A stretch of DNA of 64,000 bases from Verrucomicrobiaceae bacterium (GTDB taxonomy: Bacteria > Verrucomicrobiota > Verrucomicrobiia > Verrucomicrobiales > Akkermansiaceae). The DNA lies in assembly GCA_027487435.1 (NCBI GenBank), contig JAIYDP010000384.1:1-64000 (forward strand), given 5' to 3'. Positions within the stretch are counted from its first letter, which is position 1; every line of letters starts with the position of its first letter. Shown here piece by piece: positions 3,334-35,060 of the stretch. Below the pieces are notes generated by a model, which worked only from the letters and a program-made list of their open reading frames with translations, did no database searches and was not told where the DNA came from. The position numbers and the translations under genes are program-made.

Positions 3334-6300
3334 TCATGAAGCATCGTAGCCAAGCCAGGGCCCCAGCCATTTTTCAGCTTCGGCGAGGGGTATGCCTTTG
3401 CGTTTTGCGTAGTCGGTTACCTGGTCTTTTTGCAGCTCGCTGATGGCGAAGTAGTGGCTATCGGGATGCGACAGATAGATGCCGCTGACGGCGGATGCGG
3501 GATGCATGGCGCAGGACTCGGTGAGGGTAACTCCGCAAGCATTTGTGGCATCTAACAGAGAAAATAGAATCGGTTTCTCTGTGTGGTCGGGCTGGGCTGG
3601 ATAGCCAGGAGCCGGGCGAATGCCGCGATAGAGTTCTTTGATTAGTTCGTTGTGATTGAATTCATGTGGGCGCTCGTAGCCCCATTCCACTCGTGCACGG
3701 TGGTGAAGCAATTCGGCGAATGCTTCAGCGAAGCGGTCAGCTACAGCCTTGACCATGATGGCAGTATACGGATCGTTCGCTTTTTCCAGCTCTAACGCAA
3801 ATTCATCGGCGCCATGGATGCCAATGACAAAGCCGCCGATGTAGTCCGTGGCGGCGCTTTCCAAGCGCCATGCCATTGTTTTATACTTGGAACAAAACTC
3901 CCAATCTTCCAAGCGTGCGGCCATAGGATTTCTCTCAATATAGTTGGTCTGGTTCCAGAAATCATCTTCATCGCGGATGATATGATCGTAAGACTCTTTT
4001 TGCCAGAAGGCTCCTTCTCTACCGAGTGCTTTATTGGCCATCAAGGCGGTATGACGTTTGATGGAATGCAGAATATCAGGAAGCGCATGATCCCCTAAAG
4101 GGCGGACAATCATGTGGACATGGTTGGGCATAACGCACCAAGCGCCTAGTTCGTAACGCTCACCTGCGAAGTGTTGAATTGCATCTGCGACTATGGCTGC
4201 AATCTCTGCTTTTTTCATCCAGTTTTCGCCAAAGCCTTTGTCTAGTGCGGTTTCAATGTGTTCTTGATAAAGTTCGCGCAGACGATCATCGCAGATGTTG
4301 ATAAGTGCTAGGTCATTTATTTCTAAGGCCTTCAATCTTTTGGCGATGAGATCTTTTTTTGCGGATTGGTAGTGAAGCAGGACAGACTGGGGAATGGAGT
4401 CGTGTAGTCGGAAAGTTACACCGTATGTACCACCTTTTTGGAACCAATGTGGTAGGTGCCCCCACTTCTCGCGATCTACCGGAGTATGTTCTTTGAAGTA
4501 GCTGGGGTGAAGTGAAGAGTTGGCATGGCGCTTGGAAAGCGCCGCCACGGGCTTGACAAAATCCGCGAGCGCGTAGTGCGGTTTGGAGGTGGTTTTGTCG
4601 ATTTGCTGACGCAAGGTGTGGAAGCGAGTGATTTCTTGTGAGCCAGTAGGATCGAAGACTTTTATGTCATCGCCGTCAGCGAGGGCGGGGAAAAATCCGT
4701 AGGTGCCGCGAGCGACAAAACGCTTTTCGGCGATGATTCGTTCGATCAGCGCGAGTGCATCAAGATAGAGTTTTTGCGCTTCATCGGCACCACCCGCGTT
4801 TTGGGTCTTGAGAGTTTTAGTGTCCGGTTGCCAAACGCCGCGAATTTCCCATGCGTGGAAGAACGGCGTCCAGTCGATGTAATTGGCCAGTTCGCGCAAG
4901 GATTGATCCGCAATGACGCGAGTGCCGAGAAACGAAGGCACGGCGGGTTGGTAATTTTCCCAATCGCAGGTGAATTTATTGGCGCGTGCTTTTTCTAACG
5001 AGACAGTTGGTTTTTTGTTAGCTCCTTTGAGATAATCGATGCGGATTTTCTCTTGTTTTTCGCGGTTGGCGGCGGCAAAAGCATCGCGTTGTTCTGCTGA
5101 GATCAGCGATGTCGTCACAGGAACGGAGCGCGATGCATCGAGCACGTGGACGACAGGACCGGAGTAGTGTTGGGCGATTTTGATGGCTGTGTGTGCTGCG
5201 GATGTCGTAGCTCCACCGATGAGCAGAGGCACGGTCATGCCAGCTTTTTCCATTTCTTTTGCAACGGTCACCATTTCATCGAGCGACGGCGTGATCAACC
5301 CGGAAAGGCCGATGACATCGGCACCGATTTCTTTGGCTTTGGCGAGGATTTTATCGCACGAAACCATGACGCCCATGTCGGTGACTTCGAAACCGTTGCA
5401 GGAAAGAACGACACCGACGATGTTCTTGCCAATGTCATGGACATCGCCCTTGACGGTGGCGATGAGAAATTTCACCACGGAACTTTCTTCGATCTCAGAG
5501 GGATCTTGCTGGGCTTGTTTGAGGAGCTTTTCTGCTTCCATGAACGGCTCCAGCCATGCGACGGATTTTTTCATTACGCGGGCGGATTTCACGACTTGAG
5601 GAAGAAACATTTTTCCTGCGCCGAAAAGATCGCCGACAACGCCCATGCCGTCCATCAGCGGACCTTCGATGACTTTCAAGGGCACTCCATACTTGACTCG
5701 CGCGGCCTCGGTGTCCTCGTCGATGAATTTATCGATGCCTTTCAGAAGGGCATATTCGAGTCGTTTTTCTACAGGATCATTGCGCCAGGAAAGATCCTCT
5801 TCCACTTTCTTACCGCTGACGTTTTTGAAGGTTTCAGCGAGATCGAGCAAACGCTCCGTGCTATCGGGGCGTCGATTGAGAATCACGTCCTCGCATTTCT
5901 CTAACAACTCCGGTTGGATTTGATCATAGACTTCGAGCATGCCGGCGTTGACGATTCCCATGTCCATGCCAGCGTTGCAGGCGTGATAGAGAAAAACACT
6001 GTGCATCGCTTCGCGGACGACGTTATTGCCGCGAAAGGAGAAGGAGATGTTAGAAACGCCACCAGAGATTTTGGCGAAGGGGAGATTTTCTTTGATCCAA
6101 CGAGTGGCGTTGATGAAATCTAGCGCGTAGTTGTTGTGTTCCTCGATGCCGGTGGCGACCGTCAAGATGTTTGGGTCGAAGATGATGTCCTCGGGCGGGA
6201 AATGGACTTCGTTGGTGAGAATGTCGTATGCCCGTTTGCAGATGCGGATTTTGTCCTCGTAGGTGGCAGCTTGGCCTTGTTCATCAAAGGCCATAACAAC

Positions 6301-31886: not shown

Positions 31887-32387
31887 ATGCCGGCACCTCT
31901 ATCAGTCAAGTCTCCAGAAAAAGAATTACGCTTCACACGTTCGGCGCAAGGATTGCAATTCATTGCGGTGTGCGTGAGTTGCGTCGTAGCCTCTCTTGCG
32001 CTTTGGGTTTTGGCCACGCAAGGCACTGAATTTGAAAGGCCGAGGCTGGATGGTCTATCGTGGACGGCGTTGTTGCCGCTGCCGTTTGCTTACATTTCCT
32101 TTCGTCTCGCGATGCGCTGCATTCGCCACGCCTACTTGATTCTCACCCCACTAGGCGTCGAAATCTTTCCCTTGTTTCGACCAGAAAAAAACATGGCATT
32201 GATCACTTGGCAGGAAATCCATACCATGGAGCTGCGCGATGAACAAACATTGGTGCTTCACCACGACGAAGCAAAGACTTCCGGCATCGTTCTCTCCTTA
32301 AAGCCGATCCTTTCGGCCCGAAGACGTTTACTCCATCACACCATCGAAGGCATCATCCGCAGACAAAACACCTCCACCATTCCATGA
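31887..32387 (+). CDS. Hypothetical membrane protein (two TMs, PH-like C-terminal half)
   Basis: 166 aa; LTPLGVEIFPLFRPEKNMALITWQEIHTMEL; overlaps the start of the next ORF by 4 nt. Confidence 0.5.
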   Translation: MPAPLSVKSPEKELRFTRSAQGLQFIAVCVSCVVASLALWVLATQGTEFERPRLDGLSWTALLPLPFAYISFRLAMRCIRHAYLILTPLGVEIFPLFRPEKNMALITWQEIHTMELRDEQTLVLHHDEAKTSGIVLSLKPILSARRRLLHHTIEGIIRRQNTSTIP

Positions 32388-32899
32388 AACCACCATCACT
32401 CCAAATTCTCTCCGTGCAAAACGCCTTCGGCCAAAATGGCTGGCATTGTGAACTCGTGGAAGGCCGCGATGTTGTTCGCGCCTCCTTTTCAGCGCACCAC
32501 ACACGCATCCAGATTCACGCGCAGTCCTACACTCCCATCAATGCCCTAGCCGTCGTCGGCGAAACCCCCATGCGGATTACCAAAGCGCACCTCGCGCCGA
32601 TGCTGGAGTTGCTCAATCGCGCCAATCACCAATTGAATCTTGGAGCTTTCGAGTTCGACATCGAGCGCAACGTGCTAGCCTTTCGCACCACCAACGTCTT
32701 TGTCCGCGAGCAATACGATGCCGATATCATTTCCTCGATGGTTCACTGTGCCATAGCCGAATTGGATCGCATCACGCCCTACGCCGCCATCATCCAACGC
32801 ACCCCCGAAACAGGCCTTGCCAAAATCAACGTGCGCCGCCTGCTCGAACGCGAAGACCTAATCCCCCCCGTCCCCGGCGACGAAGACGATCTCCCCTAA
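32384..32899 (+). CDS. Hypothetical protein, YbjN-like/chaperone-fold
   Basis: 171 aa; overall pattern only. Confidence 0.4.
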   Translation: MKPPSLQILSVQNAFGQNGWHCELVEGRDVVRASFSAHHTRIQIHAQSYTPINALAVVGETPMRITKAHLAPMLELLNRANHQLNLGAFEFDIERNVLAFRTTNVFVREQYDADIISSMVHCAIAELDRITPYAAIIQRTPETGLAKINVRRLLEREDLIPPVPGDEDDLP

Positions 32900-33000: not shown

Positions 33001-33188
33001 AATCAATTTGCTCACCTGTTGAATCGGGTTGCTCACCTGTTGAATCGGATTGCTCACCTAATGAATCGGATTACTAACCTAATGAATCGGATTGCTCACC
33101 TAATAAATCGGATTGCTCACCTAATGAATCGGATTACTCACCTAATGAATCGGATTACTTACCTAATGAATCGGGTTGCTCATAAAAT
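33001..33188 (+). repeat. Tandem array A: 21-bp unit, 8 full units plus a partial
   Basis: Consensus AATCGGATTGCTCACCTAATG, contiguous with no spacers, transition-type variants between units. Confidence 0.95.
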
Positions 33189-33194
33189 TTTTTT

Positions 33195-33397
33195 GTTTGC
33201 TTTCCAACTTACAAAGTTAGCTTCCCAATCTGCAAGGTAAGCCTACCAATTCGCAAGGTAAGCCTACCAATTCGCAAGGTAAGCCTACTAATTCGCAAGG
33301 TAAGCCTACCAACTTGCAAGGTGTGCTACCCAACTTGCAAGGTGCGCTACCCGACTTGCAATGTAAGCTTTCCTATTTGCAAAGTAAACAGACCGAA
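33195..33397 (+). repeat. Tandem array B: 21-bp unit, 9 full units plus a partial; inverted relative of array A
   Basis: Consensus GTAAGCCTACCAATTCGCAAG; reverse complement CTTGCGAATTGGTAGGCTTAC shares GAATyGG...GCTyACCT with array A. Confidence 0.93.
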
Positions 33398-33632
33398 TGA
33401 CCAGATAGAACCGACGACTCTTCAGGCGGGTAAAATCGTTTCTCTGATTTGCCAACCCATTCATTTTTTACCTTCCCCTACCTCCAGCCTAAGCTTGGGA
33501 TTTCCGGATTATTCAAAGTGTTGAGCGTAACACCTAATCCCACTAAGACGATTTCCCGGGATTGACTCTCCTAAAATTGGCTCTTGCGGGCTTGTGGCAA
33601 TGCGCTACACCTGCTGCGTCAATTTCTTGATT

Positions 33633-35060
33633 ATGAAACATACTTCGATTCAGCGTCGGCGCAGTGGAGCGTCCTTTTTGTTATCTTCGGTTCTTGGACT
33701 GGTGGGTTTGTCTTTTGCGGCGGAAAAACCCGTGAAGGTCTATATTTTAGCAGGGCAGTCGAATATGGTGGGCATCGGCCAAGTCACCTCTGGCACGACC
33801 CGCTGGACTACGGAGTTTACCGATTGCGTGGCATCCCTCTACGAAGGTGCTTACGATGCTAAGGTAGATTACGATGCCCTCAAGCCCAAGCAAGAAGTCA
33901 AGCTCGTTGAATTCGGCGGGCTTAAGCCCACCCCTTATCCTAAAGGTGGCACCGTGGTGGTGCGCGGGAAATTTCAGCCGAAACAAACGGGCATCTATCA
34001 GTTCAGCCCCGGCTACGGCGCATCTACCGTAAATGTCATGAACGTAAATGGCATCGAAGTTTACCGCATGGAAGTCGGCGGTCAGCCCATCAACAAATCC
34101 ATCAAACTCAGCGAGACAGAGAAGGTGGCATTCAAGGTCACCTATTTTACCGAGAGCGCCGACAGCGTCGGCTGGTACACCAGAATGGATGTTCCTGGAA
34201 CCTTGCACACCATCGTCAATGAGGAAAAACAATATCCCTACTTGATCGACAACAATGGCAACTGGGTGGTGCGCGATGATGTGTGGTACAAAGGCGTGGT
34301 CACAGCGGGAGCCAACAAATGGCTCAGTGTCGGCTGCGGCGCGACTCCATCGCAGATTGGACCAGAATTGGCGATTGGTCACATTTTGGGCAATCATCAT
34401 GAAGAGCCGGTGTTGATTTTGAAAGCGTCGCAGGGGAATCGTTCGCTAGGATGGGACTTTTTGCCGCCGGGTAGCGAGCGTTTTGAATATGAGGGCAAGA
34501 TGTTTGCGGGGTACAAAGATGTGCAAGCTTCTTGGGCGAAAGGCGAAGAGCCAAAGGGCGAGGGGTGGTATGCTGGTAAGCAGTATGACGATTGCTTTTT
34601 TGGGGCGAAAGATGTGCTGAAAAACTTTGCAACATCATTCCCTCACTGGAAAGGTCGGAGCTATGAAATCGCTGGCTTTGTCTGGTTTCAAGGGCACAAG
34701 GATCAGTATGAGCCTGCGGCAAGTCGCTACGAAGGGAATTTGGTGAATCTGATCAAGAGCCTGCGCAAAGAATTCGATGCTCCCAACGCACCTTTCGTGG
34801 TTGGCACGGGCTGCGGGAATCCGGGGCGTGTCGGGCCAGGATTGATCATCGCCGAAGCCCAGCTTGCGGTGGATGGCAGCAAGGGAAAATACCCTGAATT
34901 CAAGGGCAATGTAAAGAGTGTGGATCTGCGTTTTGTCGATCCAGATCCTGCTAAGTCGCCTAGGGAGCAAGGTTTCCACTACCATCAAAATGCTGGTGCC
35001 TACATGCAAATTGGCGAAGCCTTAGGCAAGGGCATGATGGAGTTGCTGCAAGCGAAATGA
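33633..35060 (+). CDS. Sialate O-acetylesterase-like (SASA) hydrolase with internal PA14-like segment
   Basis: VKVYILAGQSNMVGIGQ (Ser block), KFQPKQTGIYQFSPGYGASTVNVMNVNG (PA14-like), GFVWFQGHKDQ, EQGFHYHQNAGAYMQIGEALG. Confidence 0.75.
   Translation: MKHTSIQRRRSGASFLLSSVLGLVGLSFAAEKPVKVYILAGQSNMVGIGQVTSGTTRWTTEFTDCVASLYEGAYDAKVDYDALKPKQEVKLVEFGGLKPTPYPKGGTVVVRGKFQPKQTGIYQFSPGYGASTVNVMNVNGIEVYRMEVGGQPINKSIKLSETEKVAFKVTYFTESADSVGWYTRMDVPGTLHTIVNEEKQYPYLIDNNGNWVVRDDVWYKGVVTAGANKWLSVGCGATPSQIGPELAIGHILGNHHEEPVLILKASQGNRSLGWDFLPPGSERFEYEGKMFAGYKDVQASWAKGEEPKGEGWYAGKQYDDCFFGAKDVLKNFATSFPHWKGRSYEIAGFVWFQGHKDQYEPAASRYEGNLVNLIKSLRKEFDAPNAPFVVGTGCGNPGRVGPGLIIAEAQLAVDGSKGKYPEFKGNVKSVDLRFVDPDPAKSPREQGFHYHQNAGAYMQIGEALGKGMMELLQAK

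Follow-up and report, generated by a model that had tools for sequence, protein, structure and literature searches.

The locus lies within the window, by which we mean the whole 64,000-nucleotide stretch of DNA analysed, and consists of two tandem-repeat arrays, A and B, that occupy the gap of about 700 bp between two forward-strand genes. The arrays follow the 3' end of a YbjN-family gene (32384-32899, 171 aa, PF10722), which is conserved in 35 of 38 relatives, and lie upstream of a SASA-type acetylesterase gene (33633-35060, PF03629) whose start, at 33594 or 33633, is uncertain. With an AI-2E transporter and a sigma-54 regulator completing the picture, the gene neighbourhood is ordinary and chromosome-like.

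Array A (33008-33182, forward strand), as delimited by Tandem Repeats Finder and the unit layout, comprises eight full 21-bp units and a partial TTGCTCA, with the consensus TTGCTCACCTAATGAATCGGA. The program reports period 21, 8.3 copies, 90% matches and 0% indels over this interval; relative to its own consensus the array carries 12 mismatches in 168 positions (7%), and its rows show no net frame slip. Array B (33198-33387, reverse strand), an apparent inverted relative of A, consists of nine 21-bp units with the reverse-complement consensus TACCTTGCAAATTGGTAAGCT. For 33199-33387 the program gives period 21, 9.0 copies, 82% matches and 0% indels, and at 17% mismatch to the consensus all rows stay in register. 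Between the arrays lies an A/T-rich centre (33183-33197, TAAAATTTTTTTGTT). B starts 190 bases after the start of A, that is 9 x 21 + 1, and the two arrays together measure 380 bp. The original prediction of 8 and 9 units is therefore real, with coordinates that agree with the repeat-finder run to within a few bases, and its equation of the 21-bp phase with two turns of B-DNA stands. The locus is also non-coding as proposed, since stops occur in all six frames over A and B (2-15 per frame).

Comparison of the units gives moderate support, at the level of sequence, to B being an inverted relative of A. The consensus TTGCTCACCTAATGAATCGGA and the reverse-complemented and rotated consensus of B, AAGCTTACCTTGCAAATTGGT, are identical at 12 of 21 positions, and the best single unit pairs at 14 of 21 in inverted orientation, where about 13 of 21 had been claimed. 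The inverted similarity score is 11.6, compared to 8.5 ± 0.85 for column-permuted B (P about 0.0013 inverted, 0.004 in either orientation). The inverted kinship thus holds at P about 0.001-0.004, and at P about 0.0013 it withstands the shuffled control against which it had been proposed to be judged. When the observed pairing of A and B units was compared with re-paired units it was not better (P = 0.89), which places the complementarity in the unit consensus, through common descent or consensus constraint. Neither array is significantly palindromic by itself (A, P 0.18; B, P 0.28), and an extragenic palindrome of the REP/BIME type is seen at the window only for the A and B pair taken as blocks.

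By sequence, only A-type units recur within the assembly, as three units at C90:9160-9224 (= L056:4161-4225). No B array was found beside them, so that an array standing alone, named earlier as a refutation if found at homologous loci, has in part been observed. These three units sit in intergenic DNA with repeated, REP-looking GGACTGACCCCTGAGA and AAAGGGACNGTCACTTTTT motifs. The search of the genome and its relatives for the same 21-mers, suggested with the original prediction, thus succeeded at this contig and failed among 55 relatives, where BLAST with the window array gave no match; plasmid and phage collections gave none either. The A-type pattern, searched in 385 genomes of the taxonomic class, returned its own genome and scattered chance-like hits, two of which fall in a transposase-like reading frame, and a scan of a collection of genome contigs with one strict, exact two-unit pattern returned nothing. 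The orthologous site next to YbjN in the sister genome G005 carries no array. The scarcity of sequence matches and this empty site suggest that the window array is young or fast-moving. Close to the YbjN homologue of another genome (G022, L036) we observed tandem repeats of 20, 83 and 317 bp nested in one another, with AAAAATAATGTCAGGCATTT as their basis.

What the original prediction missed is that the locus belongs to a wider repeat class. In 1.21 Mb of the assembly, a non-random sample in which several contigs were chosen for earlier hits, we counted about 20 arrays with a period of 21 or 42, nearly all intergenic and mostly unrelated in sequence. The lag spectrum of 0.87 Mb peaks at 21 (11 segments), 42 (19) and 63 (7), with most other lags at 0-7. 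Most of the arrays lie outside substantial reading frames, L118a, L130, L152 and L240 being ambiguous, and several contig breaks of the assembly fall within arrays. The contig of the window holds a second array 8 kb past its end (C81:72263-72640 = L103:8263-8640), located between convergent SEC-C and DUF58 genes; its nine 42-bp units, each a 21-mer with its own imperfect inverse, add up to 378 bp against the 380 bp of A and B. Direct-only 21-bp arrays with no palindromy are found at L242:2923-3219 (about 14 units), L244:16735-16921 (about 9) and L137:14720-14944 (about 11), and the L244 array lies between divergent genes, which rules out confinement of the class to gene 3' ends. The modules are therefore arranged in three ways: all pointing the same way (21-bp arrays), each followed by its inverse (42-bp arrays), or as a direct block followed by an inverted one, as in A and B.

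Similar arrays are held by the sister genome G005, and BLAST with the C81:72263 array identified 42-bp relatives in G008, G005 and G002 and in genus g13 (G482, G494, G502), so that members of the 42-bp family occur in two genera, g1 and g13. Small samples of four other genomes of the genus showed no such arrays, the G009 sample yielding a 7-bp repeat only. The assembly itself is a draft, 82% complete, and measures 9.4 Mb compared to roughly 3-4 Mb in the genus. Tracts of telomere-like GGGTTTA (C30), CA (C140), CAATGT and poly-G/C were noted on its contigs C30, C95, C140, C35 and C70; despite an estimated contamination of 0.6%, it probably includes eukaryotic or artefactual contigs.

In most of the 42-bp arrays the unit is a 21-mer paired with its inverse (palindromicity P < 0.015), and each 42-bp unit carries two dyads; no 21-bp array is palindromic by this test (Fisher 8e-8). 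The arms of the 42-bp units differ among 14 arrays from several genomes and two genera, and remain complementary. In an alignment registered by hand from the consensus units, the covariation of the 14 arrays is 0.422 compared to 0.192 ± 0.027 after shuffling (0/500), with slid controls at or below 0.158, and pair 16-25 takes all four Watson-Crick types and is paired in 14 of 14 arrays. Two further measures of covariation, pairs changed on both sides and further pair types, were not above shuffles. Such covariation could also arise without selection on function, through template switching between the quasi-palindromic arms. The units of A and B show no significant sequence similarity to this covarying family; they are placed in the class because of their phase, their inverted logic and their intergenic position.

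In the predicted fold of the minus strand, A (33003-33180) and B (33396-33219) are paired along one register, i + j = 403, with 119 pairs. The predicted rod (33003-33396, minus strand) repeats 8 bp, a 3x3 loop, 7 bp and a second 3x3 loop every 21 nt, with the A/T-rich centre at its apex. Its dG is -149 kcal/mol, with a z-score of -8.6 compared to -1.7 for the plus strand, a gap due to G-U pairs; both scores are relative to dinucleotide shuffles, which break the tandem repeats and thus overstate them. Under a null that keeps the repeats, 0 of 600 arrays fold equally well when the columns of B alone are permuted, and 11 of 600 when both A and B are. The mega-palindrome of the original prediction is hence loosely borne out on the minus strand but not on the plus strand, and the long hairpin it had offered is possible in view of the predicted fold, though the unit-by-unit coupling to be expected under selection for a precise A/B hairpin is absent.

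A transcribed non-coding RNA could make use of this fold, the minus strand forming a rod of about 390 nt that would act as a protein sponge, mRNA stabiliser or terminator. The difference between strands, the failure of every B-permuted array to match the fold, and the predominance of G-U over A-C types in the helix columns (8 against 2) are in line with such a molecule. On the other hand, the 11 equally good folds with both arrays permuted and the absence of co-adaptation between rungs argue against it, no promoter-like site and no terminator above chance was found at the locus, and the predicted folding of direct-only arrays in the class is not out of the ordinary. Rfam matches above the gathering score in the window are tRNAs only, the arrays reaching chance level, and a known Rfam structured RNA is accordingly not supported. 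Altogether we consider a functional RNA rod rather unlikely.

Across the class, phase is kept while the letters drift. Sixteen arrays accumulate 599 substitutions with zero net row slip over 4263 bp, although detection prefers indel-free arrays and somewhat overstates this lack of slippage. The clearest case is the array on contig C10 of G005 (L207), the positional counterpart of that on C414 of the present assembly (L201), with which it shares a downstream gene and a nearby RAYT gene. Its rows are on average 0.495 identical, and its identity at lag 42 is 0.557, where the remaining lags between 36 and 48 give 0.22-0.33. All six frames of this array hold stops, indicating that a reading frame cannot explain the phase. 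Exceptions to the phase are a 41-bp array on C105 and G482 C171, with 4% indels.

Maintenance of phase through drift, across arrays and species, at a spacing of two B-DNA turns would also be expected if a nucleoid or supercoiling protein bound sites that all lie on one face of the DNA, as with gyrase or IHF on enterobacterial BIMEs. However, the arrays hold no common sequence that a specific protein could read, and no candidate protein was found, which leaves phased protein sites, like the RNA rod, on the improbable side. The idea that A and B are the fused remnant ends of an IS21- or Tn7-like transposon that has lost its genes is far less probable and was rejected, as no istA/istB lies between the inverted ends. 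IS21-type elements of the bacterial class do have sub-terminal tandem repeats at 22-25 bp, some of them CTCAC...GA.CG-like. But neither a full IstB element nor a match to Mu-transpos_C (a profile that matched no control either) turned up in the assembly, 30 IstB loci examined were free of A-type units, and 8-9 units per end contrast with about two in IS21-type elements.

Coding for a heptapeptide repeat, with 21 bp as seven codons, is highly improbable and was likewise rejected: one frame of array A stays open for 73 aa with MNRIAHL repeats, but no open frame runs through B or through both arrays, the unit changes of A are mostly non-synonymous, and the array on C10 of G005 is stopped in the same way. 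Plasmid iterons and partition sites consist of helically phased, polar repeats of about 20 bp, and such a locus had been put forward for the two arrays; the class differs in its chromosome-like gene neighbourhood, its roughly 20 mostly unrelated arrays across the assembly and the lack of a plasmid or phage match, and, with no replication or partition gene adjoining the arrays, this identity is not supported.

The closest likeness is to BIME and REP clusters, such as E. coli BIME-2 and the BIMEs of Stenotrophomonas and Xanthomonas, which are also intergenic, regularly spaced imperfect palindromes of alternating orientation. Stems of BIME/REP clusters show complementary changes, and RAYT genes are present in the genome (PMC2817692); the 42-bp arrays share complementary arm changes and occur in genomes with RAYT genes, which we found in 10 of 10 genomes of the genus. 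Unlike BIME/REP clusters, the class holds a strict 21/42-bp phase common to arrays of differing sequence, and includes direct-only and block-inverted arrangements. The GTAG/CGTC-tagged REP superfamilies are palindromic intergenic repeats that extend to Verrucomicrobia, including Opitutus terrae (PMC3733652). The 42-bp arrays are palindromic and intergenic as well, but their dyads have no constant adjacent tag: in the arrays checked we found no conserved GTAG/CGTC at a stem end, and at the window GTAG occurs at six places of B on the minus strand, within the predicted pairing region, and nowhere in A.

At C414, GGGCTTTCAGCCC-type REPs that are unlike the 42-mers flank the one RAYT examined, and the 42-bp array lies further downstream; in both L201 and L207, RAYT genes have GGGCTTTCAGCCC-type REPs nearby and the 42-bp array lies upstream of the common neighbouring gene. 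Judged by the tag and by the RAYT examined, the array does not qualify as a REP, though its proposed working is BIME/REP-like. A weak match to Y1 transposase (PF01797) was seen at 3931-4161 of the window, reverse strand, within a frame of about 1190 aa, and similar matches are seen repeatedly across the genus, in frames of about 1000-1500 aa.

Tandem repeats of Borgs are reported to be pervasive, independently arisen, in many cases intergenic and of similar unit size (PMC9879509). The class resembles them in pervasiveness, intergenic siting and unit size; the repeats of Borgs, however, have units of many lengths in nearly perfect copies and are not known to show dyad covariation, as opposed to the fixed period and diverged copies of the class.

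Taken together, the locus is probably a non-coding intergenic array of 21-bp modules, belonging to a class of structural repeats that is BIME/REP-like and specific to this lineage. Our best reading of the class is one of BIME/REP-like intergenic repeats, predicted to form hairpins and locked to two helical turns; a class centred on hairpins would leave the direct-only arrays L242, L244 and L137 unaccounted for. For these BIME/REP-like repeats we propose that single strands of the arrays (lagging-strand DNA, or minus-strand RNA at the window) would fold up as a rod or as hairpins in phase. Slipped-strand or unequal recombination between whole 21-bp modules would grow and homogenise the arrays, so that phase persists, and arm complementarity may be upheld by template switching between quasi-palindromic arms, by selection, or by both. 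A candidate benefit is binding of a nucleoid or supercoil protein on one helical face, or structure at mRNA 3' ends.

The repeat class of this lineage is little described and apparently maintained for the folding of its DNA or RNA and not for coding, and its arrays may account for contig breaks in metagenome assemblies of this kind. More tentatively, and with doubt outweighing confidence, the arrays could be sequence-independent, phase-locked intergenic structures, in which selection or fixed-step replication retains the 21-bp module and its dyads while the letters drift, and in which phased rods or hairpins would serve a common physical function across the family. Bacterial tandem repeats are commonly classed as slippage noise of arbitrary period. 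If this proposal is true, what is retained here would be geometry and not sequence, with two or four helical turns kept through drift and arms that change together in two genera.
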